From assembly GCA_002435835.1 (NCBI GenBank), contig DIVM01000125.1, forward strand, positions 1 to 7,387: 7,387 bases of DNA, written 5' to 3'. The DNA comes from Firmicutes bacterium UBA6132 (GTDB lineage Bacteria > Bacillota_A > Clostridia > Tissierellales > Sedimentibacteraceae). This document shows positions 232-7,298 of this stretch, piece after piece. A program made the translations under genes and the position numbers. The notes under the pieces were generated by a model that saw only the letters and a program-made list of their open reading frames with translations, made no database searches and was not told the DNA's origin. Every line of letters starts with the position of its first letter. The stretch's first letter is position 1.

Positions 232-1248
232 ATGAATAAAGCTTTCCACAAAGTAATAATTTACCATGATGAAGTAAAGGATATCCCAGATGTAAATTTG
301 AGAGGACACATATTATTGTTTGTTCCAATTTCCATCTCTATTGATAACTCTACTCCATTATTAGGTGATTATCATACTGATTATTTCCCAAGAATTGTGT
401 TGTACCAAGAAATTTGCAAAGTAAGGAAAAAATATAATTTCTATAACAAAATGCATTTTTCAGACATTGGTGGAAAAAAATGGACAAAGTTCGATGAAGC
501 AAAACGTGAGATTTTAGGAATTATTATTGACGCTTTGAAAATCAAATCTTCGTTTTATTTTAATAGTCCACTAAATTGCAAATTTGCAGTAATTTTCTAT
601 CCGAAGGGGAAAGATTTGAAATTTTATTCAGGTGAAACAAAAAAAGAAAAAACCTTCAGATATGATGAAACACTACTAAGGATATTAATTAAAGGATCAG
701 CTCATTTCCTATATGATTCTGAAAAACAAATTGAGATTGAAGAATTTATTACTGACGGCTTTTCGACGTTTAGACCATTGAATGAGAATCGCATATTATT
801 CCAAATTAAAATCGATGAATTTTCTGGACGATCCGAATTAAGAAATTATGTTCATTTCGATCCCAATTTATCAATTAATCATCTTCCTTCAGATCATAGG
901 AATTATGAAGTTGATTCTACGGATTTCATTAACGCAAATTTGTTACAAGTTGCTGATTTATTGTTAGGGTCCATAAATCGTGTATGTTTTACTAATTCAA
1001 AGCTCCCTACTAAAATTCCTCAAATTGGTGAACTTTGTTCAAAAAAAGATGTAATAGCAGTTTTAATGAAAAATTTGTTAGAAAAAAAATTTAGAGGTAA
1101 AGGTTTTATCCATAGTAGCCATTATAAAACTTTCGTTGTTTCTAAAGTGGATTTTCTCGGAGATGAAATTGTTTTTAGTGAAGTTGGTATTTCCAATAAT
1201 AATAATGAAATTAATCCAGATCAATTACCTCTCATTTTTAATAACTAA
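232..1248 (+). CDS. DUF3800 domain protein (predicted RNase H-like fold)
   Basis: A 338-residue protein that I recognise as a member of the DUF3800 family. An acidic pair near the N-terminus (Y11-H-D13-E14) is followed by HFSDIG (75-80), a core strand ending FYPKG (122-126), RYDETLLR (143-150), TDG (174-176), SDH (220-222) and the family's C-terminal signature NANLLQVADLLLG (234-246, D242). DUF3800 proteins are predicted to adopt an RNase H-like fold; D13, D175 and D242 are the plausible metal ligands here. No signal peptide or membrane segment is seen, so it should be cytosolic. The family is frequent in accessory and defence-rich regions, but its biochemical role is not settled. The ATG directly precedes the first conserved strand, so the start looks right although no Shine-Dalgarno sequence is visible. 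Two stops stand in tandem (1246-1251). It is convergent with the gene ending at 1466 and so is not in its operon. Family call fairly sure; activity inferred. Confidence 0.8.
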   Translation: MNKAFHKVIIYHDEVKDIPDVNLRGHILLFVPISISIDNSTPLLGDYHTDYFPRIVLYQEICKVRKKYNFYNKMHFSDIGGKKWTKFDEAKREILGIIIDALKIKSSFYFNSPLNCKFAVIFYPKGKDLKFYSGETKKEKTFRYDETLLRILIKGSAHFLYDSEKQIEIEEFITDGFSTFRPLNENRILFQIKIDEFSGRSELRNYVHFDPNLSINHLPSDHRNYEVDSTDFINANLLQVADLLLGSINRVCFTNSKLPTKIPQIGELCSKKDVIAVLMKNLLEKKFRGKGFIHSSHYKTFVVSKVDFLGDEIVFSEVGISNNNNEINPDQLPLIFNN

Positions 1249-1465: not shown

Positions 1466-3088
1466 TTAATACGGAAAGGGTGGATTATTCTTATTGATGG
1501 TGCTAAAGAAATACGGTCCAGGCAAATAAATAGATTCATCATCTTTCCTTAATAAAGCTAAATATTCTAGTGTGTTATAACTCTTCTCATAAAATTTATC
1601 AATTAACTCGTATGCAATTTGAGATTGTATATCTATGTAACGTTGGAGTTCTTGCCTCCCCAAGTTCCAGCTAAACGAATCATAATGAATTTTGAACTTT
1701 TTAGTAACTTCAGCGGTTCCTTTCAATGTTTTTGCGTCACATTTTATATCTAATTTATTAAAAATAAAATTGAGATCATCATTAACGGAGCATATTTTTA
1801 TTCCTAAGCTCTCAACTTTATCATGTAAAATTTTTATGGACTTATGGCCTAAACCGTCAAGATGGACATCTGAATCTAGTAACTTAATAAGCTGTGAAAC
1901 CATTAAGATATTATTTTGGAGCAATATTTTATTTATTCTTGTGTTAATACCCAGCGAGGAAACTGTAATAGCGCAAAATTGATCAAGTTCGACTGCTCTG
2001 CTATTTTCCATTTTAGTGATGTAATCTTGAAAGGCCTTGCTGAGAGACAGAATGGTACTACATAAATCCAAGGTAGTATTAAAATCCCATGCTGGCTTGA
2101 AATTGCTTATTTCGGAAATTACTAAGTCTAGTCTTTGTTTGATTAAAGATTCTGTGTCCCCATTGTTAGAATTTTGAGCTATAGCCTTAATTGACATTTT
2201 ATCTTTATATGCTTTTTCAATTGTTTTATATGTTTCCCTTGAATAACTATAAATCAGAAAATATGCGCCGATAATATTGAAAGTAGTTTTAGAATAACCG
2301 TTAAGTTCAGCAAACACATCAATAATCCATCTGATATCCAATCTAGAAATATCTAAATAGTTGATTGAATTATTACAAATCATTTCTATAAGCTTTTTAA
2401 TTTCAAACCTATCACGTCCATATGAAAGTAGATCCAAATCTTCTAGTGAAGCATTTTCTATTAAATAATCGTTCTTAAACCTATTGTTACTATAGGAAAC
2501 ACGCTGGGCTCCGTTTGCCTCTTTTGATATCATTAATACCTTTAATTTCATTTTTTCATTTTTGTCTTCTACACGTTCTATCCAAGCTGAAAAGAATTCG
2601 ATATCATTGTCATTCAATATATATAATCCATATAAAATTTTATATAGACATGTAGATAAATTACTCGACTTATAATCTGTATAATTATATTTTGAGACAG
2701 ACATGTTCAAAGAAACTAATTCAAGCAATTTGTTTACAGTATAATAATCGCTTTCCATGAGAAAATGAGATATTAGAGTAACGGATTCCCAGGGCTCATT
2801 CGAATGTTTAAATAGTGTTTCAATTAAGAAATTATTATTAACAATTTCACCGTACGATTCTTCAGGCAGTTCATTTAAAATGCCACTTGAGATTTCAGCA
2901 TCAGTTTTGATTTTACGTGAATGTTTATTAAGAAGATACAACCACATTTGAATTGCCGCACTTAAGTCAATCGTAGCGATTTTTGCAATCGTCGACGTCA
3001 GTGTTTCTACATTGTTATCCCAATCATCTTTAAACATATCAAAGCTGTCATAAAGGATTTGTTGCTTGTTTTCAGAACTCATTACCAT
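1466..3088 (-). CDS. Helical protein with RNA polymerase alpha-CTD-like domain
   Basis: A 540-residue protein, not recognised as a whole. Most of it is predicted alpha-helical and rich in L, I, N, S and K, like a scaffold or solenoid, with no membrane segment. The readable part is residues about 373-431, which match the C-terminal domain of RNA polymerase alpha: S-x-LGI-x-TR, then N-x-I-x-x-V-x-x-L, then a helix-hairpin-helix turn GLGHKS (412-417), then K-x-x-x-LGI. In RpoA that fold binds UP-element DNA and activators; similar domains turn up in unrelated proteins as DNA- or protein-binding modules. The C-terminal 100 residues (SWNLGRQELQRYID onwards) are unassigned. ATG at 3088 is chosen because GAAGGGG lies 8 nt upstream; a GTG at 3097 overlaps that site and would add three residues. 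It starts 24 nt after the GHKL ATPase gene and is almost certainly co-transcribed, so it is probably that protein's partner. Function unknown. Confidence 0.75.
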   Translation of the reverse strand: MVMSSENKQQILYDSFDMFKDDWDNNVETLTSTIAKIATIDLSAAIQMWLYLLNKHSRKIKTDAEISSGILNELPEESYGEIVNNNFLIETLFKHSNEPWESVTLISHFLMESDYYTVNKLLELVSLNMSVSKYNYTDYKSSNLSTCLYKILYGLYILNDNDIEFFSAWIERVEDKNEKMKLKVLMISKEANGAQRVSYSNNRFKNDYLIENASLEDLDLLSYGRDRFEIKKLIEMICNNSINYLDISRLDIRWIIDVFAELNGYSKTTFNIIGAYFLIYSYSRETYKTIEKAYKDKMSIKAIAQNSNNGDTESLIKQRLDLVISEISNFKPAWDFNTTLDLCSTILSLSKAFQDYITKMENSRAVELDQFCAITVSSLGINTRINKILLQNNILMVSQLIKLLDSDVHLDGLGHKSIKILHDKVESLGIKICSVNDDLNFIFNKLDIKCDAKTLKGTAEVTKKFKIHYDSFSWNLGRQELQRYIDIQSQIAYELIDKFYEKSYNTLEYLALLRKDDESIYLPGPYFFSTINKNNPPFPY

Positions 3089-3094
3089 TATTAA

Positions 3095-3103
3095 CACCCC
3101 TTC
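3095..3103 (-). promoter_or_regulatory. Ribosome-binding site, decides the start
   Basis: On the minus strand GAAGGGGTG precedes the ATG at 3088 by about 6-8 nt. The GTG at 3097-3095 is part of this site, which argues against its use as the start codon. The sequence is nearly the same as the one in front of the ATPase gene at 5161-5168. Confidence 0.6.
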
Positions 3104-3112
3104 AAATTATTT

Positions 3113-5152
3113 TTATTTTAACTCTATTTTAAATTCCTCGCCATGATATTGATCGCAGTACCATTCCCACTGCCTCACTCTTTTTTCAAAATGTAATTTT
3201 TTTAAAGGATTTCTTATATAAACCACTTTCGATTCGCTATCACTTTGTATTAGTAAACAGATAATATAGTCTTCGCCATATTGATGGCCAGCAGTATACT
3301 CGTTATTTGTTATTGTAAATGATGCCGACTGATTATTTAGAGACTTAACCTCAATATAGCGCTTTTCTCCATTGGGTGTAGTGCTTTCCAAATCATATCC
3401 AACGTTTTGACGACTAACATCAACTACATCATTACCAAAAAACTTTTCTAATTCAATGCATTGTTGTTCAGCAGATCTCCATTTTGAGATAACGGGTTTA
3501 TTAGTTGGTATCGAAACTTCGTTAATCGCTGAATTTCCATAATTTTTTTCTATTTTCGTGTTGGACTGGGCTGATATAATATCGCTTGTAATTCCCAATT
3601 TAGAACTTAAAATACTTATATCATATGGATTCATAATTTCTGAAATTGCACGTTTGACAGCTTCAGCAGGCTTAGATTTAGCGCTGATTTGCTCTAAACC
3701 AACAATGCCTGATTCACTAGGTATTAATATTCCTTGCATAGATAAAGAATTCTTATTCGTAATACTGGCAGCTTTTGAGGCACTTGCGATAAAAGAGAGT
3801 ATTTTTGCGTATGTTCGTGGATTTAACTTTTCTACAAAACTCTTTTCTGTGAGGGTTCGAGAGATATCCTCTGTCGAAAAAAACTCTTTTGAATGTTTTT
3901 CGATAAATTTATCAATCATTGGAAAGCTATTATAATAATCAATTTTTAACGATTGCATTCCGATATATTCAGATTTTCTTAAAATATGTTTTTCGCTATC
4001 TTCAAAAGAGTTAGGGATTAATTTGCACTTGCCAATAAGCTGCATTGTGTCATTTGCCAACTCAAAACGAAGGGATTTTTTTATTAAGGTGTTCAACTTG
4101 TTAATTAATTTCTGGTTCATTATACTAAATGAATTCATCCTGGAGATAATATCCAGAAATTCCGTAAACATAGCATTTTTACCCCTCAAAGCTACTTTCA
4201 AAGTATCAAAAAGTAGTAATGCAAGATTGTCGATTGCTTCATCTGTTAATTCGTCTTGAGTAATATGTTTTCTTGATGGGTCAGTTGAAAAGTCTGCGTT
4301 TAATTTCAGTAAAAAGGGTGATTTATCTAGCGTGGGTAAAAAACAATGATATATTGCCTCCGCTGAATCGCAAGGAACAATTTTATTACCGAGAAATTTC
4401 ATTGCAAGAGCAACTATGTTTTTACGAATTATTAACCATTCCTCTTTTTTATGTCCTTTAAATATTATTGTGCTATAGCCGCTAAAAGTTTTATGAGTTC
4501 TTTCAAAACTGAAATTGATTTCACTCATTCTAACTAAACAATTTTTTACATTATGTAAAAATATAAAATATCCGTTGTCTAAGCCTCTTATTTCTTCTTT
4601 AAACTGTTCTAATTTTGCATTTGTAAAAACAAAAATTGTTGTGTAATTTTGAGCTGCCAAATTATTAATGTAATTTTTTAAATGCAATTCTAAATCGTCA
4701 ACAAGAAAAGGGATCCTAACTGTTGGAAGTTTATCTGAAGGTTTATTGAGCGCTTGTGCGCACTTTGATTTCGAAAAAGTAAAGTAAGTGTTGTCAGAAT
4801 ATATTATTATTTCACTTGTTAAGTATGCAGTACTTTTAAACCCAACCCCACGATATCCAATCATATAACCTCGTTCTTTTTTGCTTGCACCAGAGCGGCT
4901 AATTGAAATTATATCGTTCGCATCAAATGGTCTACCGTTATTAGCAAAAATTATATTTCCTTGAAATTCTTCGACAAGAATCTTTGAAGATCCGCTATCA
5001 TCTGCATTTTGCAGCAATTCAACAAAAATACGACCACTATAGCTCTCAGCCATATATTTTTCCATTGCGGCCATATCTTCTAATAGATATGGTGAATTTT
5101 TTGCTTCTGTTATATATTCTGCATTTATTTTTTGAATTATATTATTGAGCAA
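3113..5152 (-). CDS. Sacsin-like GHKL ATPase with C-terminal DUF3883 domain
   Basis: A 679-residue protein. The N-terminal 250 residues are a GHKL (Hsp90/MutL-type) ATPase of the sacsin class. The N-box is ELLQNADD (45-52; E45, N49), the G1-like box IIFANNGRPF (67-76) and the glycine-rich lid G-Y-RGVGFKS (99-107). The family binds ATP and cycles between open and clamped forms. The C-terminus (about 560-650) matches DUF3883, the domain also found in plant NO VEIN. GYD (D587) followed by IEVKS (E601, K603) has the spacing of a PD-(D/E)XK nuclease core, so nuclease activity is possible but unproven. The middle, about 330-550, is unassigned and helical. Start: TTG at 5152, preceded by AGGAAGGGTG; no upstream in-frame start precedes a stop, and the next ATG would remove residues just before the N-box. 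Such GHKL plus nuclease-like architectures are typical of predicted prokaryotic conflict systems (family knowledge; role here inferred). Likely one operon with the alpha-CTD-like gene. Confidence 0.85.
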   Translation of the reverse strand: MLNNIIQKINAEYITEAKNSPYLLEDMAAMEKYMAESYSGRIFVELLQNADDSGSSKILVEEFQGNIIFANNGRPFDANDIISISRSGASKKERGYMIGYRGVGFKSTAYLTSEIIIYSDNTYFTFSKSKCAQALNKPSDKLPTVRIPFLVDDLELHLKNYINNLAAQNYTTIFVFTNAKLEQFKEEIRGLDNGYFIFLHNVKNCLVRMSEINFSFERTHKTFSGYSTIIFKGHKKEEWLIIRKNIVALAMKFLGNKIVPCDSAEAIYHCFLPTLDKSPFLLKLNADFSTDPSRKHITQDELTDEAIDNLALLLFDTLKVALRGKNAMFTEFLDIISRMNSFSIMNQKLINKLNTLIKKSLRFELANDTMQLIGKCKLIPNSFEDSEKHILRKSEYIGMQSLKIDYYNSFPMIDKFIEKHSKEFFSTEDISRTLTEKSFVEKLNPRTYAKILSFIASASKAASITNKNSLSMQGILIPSESGIVGLEQISAKSKPAEAVKRAISEIMNPYDISILSSKLGITSDIISAQSNTKIEKNYGNSAINEVSIPTNKPVISKWRSAEQQCIELEKFFGNDVVDVSRQNVGYDLESTTPNGEKRYIEVKSLNNQSASFTITNNEYTAGHQYGEDYIICLLIQSDSESKVVYIRNPLKKLHFEKRVRQWEWYCDQYHGEEFKIELK

Positions 5153-5446: not shown

Positions 5447-5947
5447 TTAACTACCGGGTATATTCCATTCATCTAGTTTGTTCCGACTTATAATAAGTTT
5501 GTTTAGGGGATTTTTGGAACCATAAGCTCGCAAACTTGCTCGTGGGATTAATTCAACTGTAATAGTTTGAGATTTTTCAAGATTAATGTCTATACATTTT
5601 TCAATTTCTAATGGTTCTAATAAACACACTTCCATTTTTTTTGCTTCATTTACTGCTGGAAAACCACATACCAAAGCAAAGTAAACTGGTAGTGTTTGCT
5701 TTTTTTCGGATATTTTCTTCAGTTCTGAAGATTGAAAAGGGAAATTCCAAACAGTTTTTTCTTCTTTTTTTGTAAATCTAGGCAAAATCGAATATTTAAC
5801 ATAAACAATTACCTCATCATTTAGAATGTACATAGCCCAAGCATTCGATTTATCTGTTTCAACCAATCTCAATGTTGGTGAATCATTCCTAAGAATTCTT
5901 GTAAGAACAATACCATGCATTAGATGAAATGTTTTGACATGACTCAT
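5447..5947 (-). CDS. Uncharacterised 166-aa protein beside the GHKL operon
   Basis: I do not recognise a named domain. The protein looks soluble and beta-rich, with no signal peptide or membrane span. Segments that look conserved-like are HGIVLTRIL (11-19), AWAMYILND (36-44) followed by V-Y-V-K-YS (48-53), WNFPF (67-71), VYFALVCG (88-95), SLRAYGS (138-144) and a C-terminal RNKLDEWNIPGS (155-166). The ending W-x-IPGS right at the C-terminus is notable. The ATG at 5947 has a strong AAGGAGAT ribosome-binding site (5963-5956) ten nt upstream, so the start is secure. It lies on the same strand and upstream of the GHKL ATPase gene but 294 nt away, so a shared transcript is possible rather than shown. 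Its position suggests an accessory, sensor or regulator for that module (inference). Composition is similar to its neighbours. Confidence 0.7.
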   Translation of the reverse strand: MSHVKTFHLMHGIVLTRILRNDSPTLRLVETDKSNAWAMYILNDEVIVYVKYSILPRFTKKEEKTVWNFPFQSSELKKISEKKQTLPVYFALVCGFPAVNEAKKMEVCLLEPLEIEKCIDINLEKSQTITVELIPRASLRAYGSKNPLNKLIISRNKLDEWNIPGS

Positions 5948-6512: not shown

Positions 6513-7298
6513 ATGTCATTACTCTCAGACTTCTGCAACGAAACCGAAGCACTACTTTTAAGCTCTTTCATCAACCAACAACCCAACAACCCAGATTCCA
6601 TCCAAACCCTCAGAAATCATTTCATCAATCTCTTCCTGAAAAGATTCCCCCCCTCTACAATCCAGATCGGCTCCGGAATCATCATCGATCATTTCGGAGC
6701 CCAATCCAGCCGCCAAAACCTGATCCTATACCTCAACGACTTCCCCATCTTTCCAACCACATCAGGATCCAAAATATACCCTATGGAAAGCGTGATCGCA
6801 ACAATAGAAATTCTCCCACCATCCACCACTCGTAAGGGCATAGCATTCACGCACTTGTAATGCTTTGCCCAGCTTACCCAATCCTTCTCCAACAGCGCAT
6901 CCGTAAAAAACTTGAAAACCGGAAAGCACAGAATCCTTGCCAATAACTCCTTAGATTACATGGAATTGTCGTTAAGAATAAAACCAAAAACATTTCTGTT
7001 TTCTTTCCAATCTCCTGTCGATCACCAATATATTCACGCACAATATGACCTAATTAAACAAGAAACTAATTCTGTTGTCCCCGATGGAATCTGTTTTTTA
7101 GGAAAAAATGGTTTATATGCAAAATACAATCCTGAATCGAGATCAACCAATTTTTATCATGAGGAACCATTTACTAGATTTTTCCAACATCTACTTCAAA
7201 TAATTGTAGGTGAAATAAACTCAAATAATCTGAAACAACAATCAAATTCGTCCATTGTTTACGATCTCAGCGGCTACTTGATGTCATACCAAACTTAG
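6513..7298 (+). pseudogene. DUF6602-type (nuclease-like) gene broken by a palindrome insertion
   Basis: Residues 1-100 match the N-terminal half of the DUF6602 family: IGSGIIIDHFGAQS (52-65), Q-N-L-I-L-Y (68-73), then P-M-E-S-V-I-A-T-IE (90-99), which should run into the EVKS motif. Instead 20 unrelated codons follow, including a TAA at 6858-6860. The same frame then resumes with LTQSFSNSASVKNLK and a plausible DUF6602 C-terminal half ending at TAG 7296-7298. Because the frame is kept, the extra DNA is a multiple of three, a net gain of about 50 nt if the family's usual spacing applies. The family is predicted to have a PD-(D/E)XK-like core; here the expected Asp is N69 and the Lys is lost, so the product would be inactive even if read through. 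ATG at 6513 has GGAG 6 nt upstream. ATG 6912 could start a C-terminal fragment but has no clear ribosome-binding site. Confidence 0.7.
6813..6871. repeat. Palindromic element inserted in coding sequence
   Basis: GGGCATAGCATT (6836-6847) pairs with AATGCTTTGCCC (6859-6870), 11 of 12 bases, around an 11-nt loop. A C-rich lead-in ending in TAAGGG (6833-6838) precedes it, as in the two intergenic copies. The TAA stop at 6858-6860 straddles the loop and the right arm. The outer limits are estimated from where the DUF6602 match stops (after 6812) and resumes (about 6873). No target-site duplication could be recognised. Confidence 0.6.

Follow-up and report, generated by a model that had tools for sequence, protein, structure and literature searches.

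The window analyzed here, a stretch of 7,387 nucleotides (nt) on contig DIVM01000125.1 of Firmicutes bacterium UBA6132 (GCA_002435835.1), carries two co-directional minus-strand genes, an ATPase gene followed by the gene of a partner protein. The ATPase joins an N-terminal GHKL module to a C-terminal DUF3883/NOV_C domain, and the partner begins with a helical domain (hereafter the N-domain). The evidence supports that the two genes belong together, because they are immediate neighbours in 24 of the 26 loci in which the N-domain was found, in both gene orders, and because the two proteins diverge to matching degrees. We consider it rather probable that the pair is an ATP-gated nuclease machine in which a DNA-binding helical partner switches the nuclease on and which restricts phage or other invading DNA, and we infer a phage-defence activity for it. 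The parts of the pair, with protein lengths in amino acids (aa), are as follows.

3113..5152, minus strand: ATPase gene with predicted nuclease, 679 aa, TTG start; GHKL module, helical linker and C-terminal DUF3883/NOV_C domain
3197..3484, minus strand: DUF3883/NOV_C domain, ATPase residues ~557-652, with the nuclease-like core D587, E601-x-K603
3089..3112, minus strand: intergenic gap of 24 nt, holding the ribosome-binding stretch GAAGGGGTGTT
1466..3088, minus strand: partner gene, 540 aa; ATG start 24 nt past the ATPase stop codon
2528..3088, minus strand: N-domain of the partner, residues 1-187, common to stand-alone partners elsewhere
1790..1984, minus strand: module like the C-terminal domain of the RNA polymerase alpha subunit (alpha-CTD), partner residues ~369-433, profile and fold match

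The spacing and the ribosome-binding stretch had been noted in an earlier reading of the same DNA (the first-pass annotation) and were confirmed; position 3088 is preferred as the partner start because most close homologues start there.

Pairing of the ATPase and Its Partner across Genomes

Two ATPase peptide patterns were scanned for in 84,980 species genomes, which gave 99 confirmed stretches; the best 80 of these 99 (78 loci) and one locus from a scan of viral contigs made up a set of 79 ATPase loci, referred to below by L numbers. Using an iterated profile of the partner, the N-domain was found in 26 of the 79. Its gene is the immediate same-strand neighbour of the ATPase gene in 24 of them (gap of -26 to +47 nt), whereas L006 and L009 have one or two further genes, on the same strand, between the two; it lies upstream of the ATPase in 19 of the 26 loci and downstream in seven. 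The N-domain occurs alone (~190-230 aa), at the C-terminal end of a protein of 407-416 aa, at the N-terminal end of proteins of 767-1377 aa, or as a fusion with the alpha-CTD half (window and L001). Pairwise distances between N-domains agreed with those between the ATPases (22 pairs, r = 0.76, a value reached by 0 of 5000 permutations), in a test that ignores common descent.

The reverse search, in 16 genomes chosen from the ATPase loci, returned 17 N-domain matches in 15 genomes (none in the sixteenth, that of L017), and all of them lay at the ATPase locus: 13 show the ATPase in the fetched stretch, and four (L019, L020, L022 and L035), for which the fetched stretch did not reach far enough, were placed by coordinates. 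Five broader surveys (391, 398, 348, 295 and 295 genome searches, each including a known positive centre; 1727 in total, with certain genomes sampled twice and scoring limited to 8-10 candidates per genome) found the N-domain in only 13 genome searches, i.e., its presence is patchy. Nine of these 13 genomes gave strong matches (E-value of 2.1e-40 or better), every one at an ATPase locus; six were already known from the reverse search, two were those of L003 and L028, and one (G554) was new.

A few partner loci are irregular. An in-frame stop interrupts the partner in L016 (7360-7996, which also carries a frame shift) and in L024 (7379-7999), with the ATPase beside it open in both, and in L008 (6568-7979) two tandem partner N-domain genes are followed by a single ATPase.

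Domain Structure of the Two Proteins

Residues ~19-330 of the ATPase form a sacsin/MORC-like GHKL (Bergerat) module, with the N-box Asn, the glycine-rich lid motifs and a sacsin/HATPase profile match, as the first-pass annotation had read from the motifs. The sacsin ATPase domain and NOV_C/DUF3883 were both detected above the Pfam cut-offs, the latter bearing out the nuclease-like domain that had been proposed; the NCBIfam sacsin N-terminal domain was matched as well, and in structure comparison the fold resembles MORC, sacsin and Hsp90 proteins. The D...(D/E)-x-K core of PD-(D/E)XK nucleases, also named in the first-pass annotation, is present: D587, E601 and K603 are invariant in 32 of 32 aligned ATPases and intact in 65 of the 70 full-length ones. 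The order of elements in the DUF3883 model appears to fit a restriction-endonuclease fold, the rows of the structure comparison spanning residues 18-360 only. We treat the DUF3883 domain as a predicted DNA-cutting nuclease. The closest PADLOC models of the ATPase are those of TmtA (best E-value 1.6e-44).

For the partner, no Pfam or PADLOC match was obtained at E-values up to 1; a weak match to RNA polymerase alpha lies far under the cut-off of that model. Its conserved core comprises the first ~187 residues, a helical domain outside the known families, and stand-alone partners stop where the extra half of the window partner starts. That half holds the alpha-CTD-like module, in which profile and fold both match; it was seen only in the window's own lineage, where L001, the only one of the 26 N-domain loci to have it, is a close relative (ATPase 79% identical). 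Five residues of the module (R384, G412, G414, K416 and S417) do not vary among the 14 partners aligned (of 34 found). At four of these positions (R384, G414, K416 and S417) the alpha-CTD of B. subtilis carries the identical residue in the alignment, and N at position 387 matches it in 12 of the 14; we take the aligned positions to be those that contact DNA in real alpha-CTDs. Because the module keeps these residues, DNA binding seems likelier than contact with RNA polymerase. The partner had originally been described as alpha-CTD-like and as recognising either nucleic acid or transcription machinery; the module is real and, of the two targets, DNA is probably the better one, but the feature conserved among partners is the N-domain and not the alpha-CTD.

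ATPase Phylogeny, Exchange of Neighbours and Decay of the Nuclease

The ATPase tree was built from residues 1-520 of 70 full-length sequences by a quick method without bootstrap, with support from the Shimodaira-Hasegawa-like approximate likelihood-ratio test (SH-aLRT); L029 and L053 were too short and were left out. A single group of 30 rows (SH-aLRT 99) comprised the window, all 24 N-domain loci in the tree and five loci without the N-domain (L011, L014, L017, L018 and L055); in four of these five, a gene coding for 607-805 aa lies a short distance upstream. When the rows were given six partner labels by hand, nine changes were needed on the tree, compared with 34 in shuffles.

Single-linkage clustering of neighbour proteins (E-value of 1e-3) revealed two further partner groups. 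One consists of 39 linked proteins, mostly of ~110 or 230-280 aa and mostly directly upstream of more distant ATPases (loci L031-L077), many of which overlap the ATPase start by 4 nt; one of them has a DUF5067 match under the cut-off. The other comprises eight proteins, mostly of ~152-161 aa, downstream of another ATPase branch (directly downstream in L030, L034, L036, L040, L060 and L074). Some rows of the tree (e.g., L044, L072 and L078) are without a groupable neighbour. Given the grouping in the tree and the low number of label changes, several branches of the ATPase family each keep their own neighbour.

Damage to the nuclease core is confined to five of the 70 ATPases (L019, L020, L021, L022 and L035), which form a single branch (SH-aLRT 100). 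E601 is replaced by Ala in all five and K603 is kept in all five, and D587 is lost in four (it is kept in L035). The same five are exactly those with an enlarged partner (767-1377 aa). In L020 and L021, an additional Mrr_cat domain follows the decayed nuclease (E-values of 6e-30 and 4e-28), a domain not found in L019, L022 and L035. Our interpretation is that cutting was handed over to something else in this lineage, which nevertheless retained the ATPase and its partner as a unit.

Defence Genes and Mobile Elements around the Pair

In L022 and L035, the pair is located inside BREX operons, between PglZ (E-values of 5e-299 and 0) and BrxL (assigned in L035 by clustering and the PADLOC tally); in L022 one gene of 381 aa also intervenes on the stretch between PglZ and BrxL. 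Among 20 large flanking genes scanned singly, ten matched PADLOC families: PglZ twice, BrxL, two mad6/PD-T4-6-like genes, MkoA (L019), OLD (L021), PDC-S20 (L004), PDC-S02/Mrr (L005) and HEC-06 (L024). The defence neighbourhood is thus clear in single loci (BREX genes, Mrr-type PDC-S02, PDC-S20). Taken together, 137 flanking genes (of 181, from 24 of the 26 N-domain loci; ~49,000 residues) matched 292 PADLOC families at 1e-5, versus 169 for 137 control genes (46,029 residues, at most 900 aa per gene) taken at arbitrary places (round coordinates or contig starts) in 16 of the same genomes. The comparison with defence families that the first-pass annotation had called for is therefore positive for individual loci and only moderate against the control.

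Mobile copies were also found: one relative is carried by a mobilizable Planococcus plasmid, close to an IS66 transposase, and its N-domain partner of 209 aa overlaps the start of the ATPase; another N-domain-paired relative lies on a viral contig.

After BrxL, the two BREX loci continue alike (13510-17221 in L022 and 12497-16339 in L035): a leucine-rich-repeat protein (by Pfam in L022) comes first, then similar genes coding for 168, 433 and 263/265 aa. Matches to mad6/PD-T4-6 were obtained for two 433-aa genes, the one in this stretch of L022 and one that lies upstream in L019.

Other Genes of the Window

Upstream of the ATPase start by ~300 nt, on the same strand, lies a gene of 166 aa with a good ribosome-binding site (5447-5947, minus strand), for which profile scans gave no family match above cut-off. 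A gene of 338 aa (232-1248, plus strand) is convergent with the pair and has a DUF3800 match slightly under the Pfam cut-off (E-value of 0.0024). The gene at 6513-6860 (plus strand) exceeds the Pfam cut-off for DUF6602 and matches the PADLOC families PD_DExK (3e-14) and NucC (6e-4), and a second open stretch at 6912-7298 (plus strand) continues in the same frame beyond an in-frame stop; together they may be what is left of another gene of nuclease type close to the pair. No BREX model matched any of the six open reading frames scanned in the window, which is only 7.4 kb long.

Proposed Function and Alternatives

Restriction and phage defence repeatedly employ GHKL ATPases coupled to nucleases, and in MORC and MutL-type proteins ATP drives closure of the GHKL dimer around DNA. 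By analogy, the partner would dock on the ATPase through the N-domain and, in the window's lineage, the alpha-CTD-like module may bind DNA through its helix-hairpin-helix; sensing would then let ATP close the GHKL dimer around DNA, and closure could activate or release the DUF3883 nuclease, as may be the case in VcSduA (see below). Invading DNA is the presumed target because of the patchy distribution, the mobile copies and the neighbours. Exchange has affected the remainder of the partner in other lineages and, in two cases, the nuclease as well.

Several points weigh against this reading. Tabulating adjacency, a check that the first-pass annotation had proposed, favours the pairing over the N-domain loci, but 53 of the 79 ATPase loci are without the N-domain, five of them within the window's own 30-row branch. 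Four of the 13 survey genomes gave weak N-domain matches (best E-values of 2.8e-6 to 6.4e-14) with no ATPase within 1.5 kb, which either argue against exclusivity or are chance helical matches. L002, L003, L028 and L053 are near copies of a single locus, to be counted as one lineage, and to this is added the neglect of common descent in the distance test. Structure comparison did not recover the nuclease fold of residues 557-652, its rows ending at residue 360; the window partner has K, not N, at position 387, and the assignment of DNA contacts rests on alignment. Besides the moderate enrichment of PADLOC families, ten of the 20 large flanking genes scanned singly matched no PADLOC family, and no ATPase relative was found among 50,697 phage records at an E-value of 1e-10.

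Two co-directional genes, a constant partner domain and a nuclease-like enzyme would also suit a toxin-antitoxin-like pair, in which the ATPase-nuclease, once set free, would turn on the nucleic acid of its own cell and the partner would mainly hold it in check (abortive infection, not restriction); antitoxins are often encoded first, and the partner precedes the ATPase in 19 of the 26 loci. We regard this as unlikely, since a whole clade keeps the pair despite a damaged nuclease core, which a pure toxin role fails to explain, partners of 767-1377 aa would be unusual as antitoxins, and the gene order is reversed in the window's lineage. Recruitment of the ATPase to promoters or RNA polymerase by the alpha-CTD-like partner, with DUF3883 binding and not cutting, is improbable: the alpha-CTD half is present in only one of the 26 loci, a profile search with the sigma-like region of the partner returned no sigma factor, and 65 of 70 ATPases retain an undamaged nuclease core. 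The resemblance of the ATPase fold to MORC, sacsin and Hsp90 might point to a cellular pair for DNA repair or protein quality control (MutL- or sacsin-like), yet housekeeping genes would hardly be so patchy (13 of 1727 genome searches), with variable neighbours, a plasmid copy and a position within BREX in two relatives, and we give this very little credence.

The pair might instead be a two-gene branch of Tiamat (presumably equivalent to TmtA), a single-gene GHKL-DUF3883 defence protein, with the same way of working. TmtA profiles match both ends of the ATPase. One full-length TmtA match, L126 with 1593 aa, shares the GHKL and NOV_C ends with it and shows a marginal N-domain match directly behind the GHKL part (E-value of 1.3e-3 for the protein and 0.012 for the stretch). 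However, the ATPase has 679 aa against profiles of 1302-1782 positions, ~1100 middle residues of L126 are without counterpart in it, and identity by blastp is 30% over 121 residues; we hold a Tiamat branch to be somewhat unlikely. No account of the Tiamat mechanism was found in the literature searched.

Returning to the ATP-gated nuclease machine, a bolder form of it is possible, although we put it forward tentatively: the pair may be the first member to be described of a modular defence chassis of two genes. In such a chassis a GHKL ATPase clamp would keep a constant docking domain of the partner, while three things could be exchanged: the sensor part of the partner (alpha-CTD-like, a long helical protein, or absent), the nuclease (either DUF3883 or Mrr) and the host system (BREX or a solo setting). 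In the window's lineage, a captured RNA polymerase alpha-CTD would then read UP-element-like DNA of invaders and aim the ATP-gated nuclease at their promoters. If so, the alpha-CTD-like module would be a rare case of a DNA-binding fold of transcription recognising invaders. A constant domain with an exchangeable remainder offers a handle on how such an ATPase is told when to fire its nuclease, with the prediction that the partner core should dock and the extra part should sense. The clade with the decayed core, which kept the pair (Mrr added in two members, BREX around two others), is a natural experiment that predicts which part cuts.

Comparison with Known Systems

In the families and literature searched, no name was found for the two-gene form or for the N-domain, in agreement with the first-pass annotation, which knew the pair under no system name. 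The kind of enzyme (GHKL with PD-(D/E)XK) is already known from VcSduA and the TmtA models of PADLOC. VcSduA is a GHKL-type Shedu (type I-D, earlier called paraMORC3). Like the window ATPase, it has an N-terminal GHKL ATPase and a C-terminal PD-(D/E)XK nuclease; mutation of either activity abolishes phage defence, and control of the nuclease by the ATPase is the hypothesis of its authors (PMC12137116). The nuclease there belongs to DUF4263 and here to DUF3883/NOV_C, and VcSduA is described as one gene, whereas here there is a second gene with a constant domain. DUF4263 was absent from the Pfam matches of the ATPase at E-values up to 1, and by nuclease family the pair is not Shedu.

Tiamat is alike in its GHKL/sacsin-like N-terminus and NOV_C-matching C-terminus. 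By architecture the ATPase is not Tiamat, as it is much shorter than the profiles and no match covers a whole one: the best TmtA match covers positions 10-479 of 1538, and the C-terminal stretch fits another TmtA profile (1394-1489 of 1563). The pair differs from the MORC/paraMORC proteins of restriction-modification operons in that no methylase or helicase matched among the six open reading frames scanned in the window, a comparison of neighbouring genes.

The partner finds a parallel in PglW of type 2 BREX, a defence protein in which winged helices come after a helical domain that resembles the alpha-CTD (PMC12839542). PglW itself is a kinase, whereas no kinase match was obtained for the window partner, which is paired with a GHKL nuclease-like protein. 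The C-terminal domain of the ATPase, in turn, is shared with the SNF2 helicase-DUF3883 proteins of restriction-modification operons, in which DUF3883 is termed a novel restriction endonuclease (REase) domain (PMC3710099); there it is joined to a helicase, and here to a GHKL ATPase.

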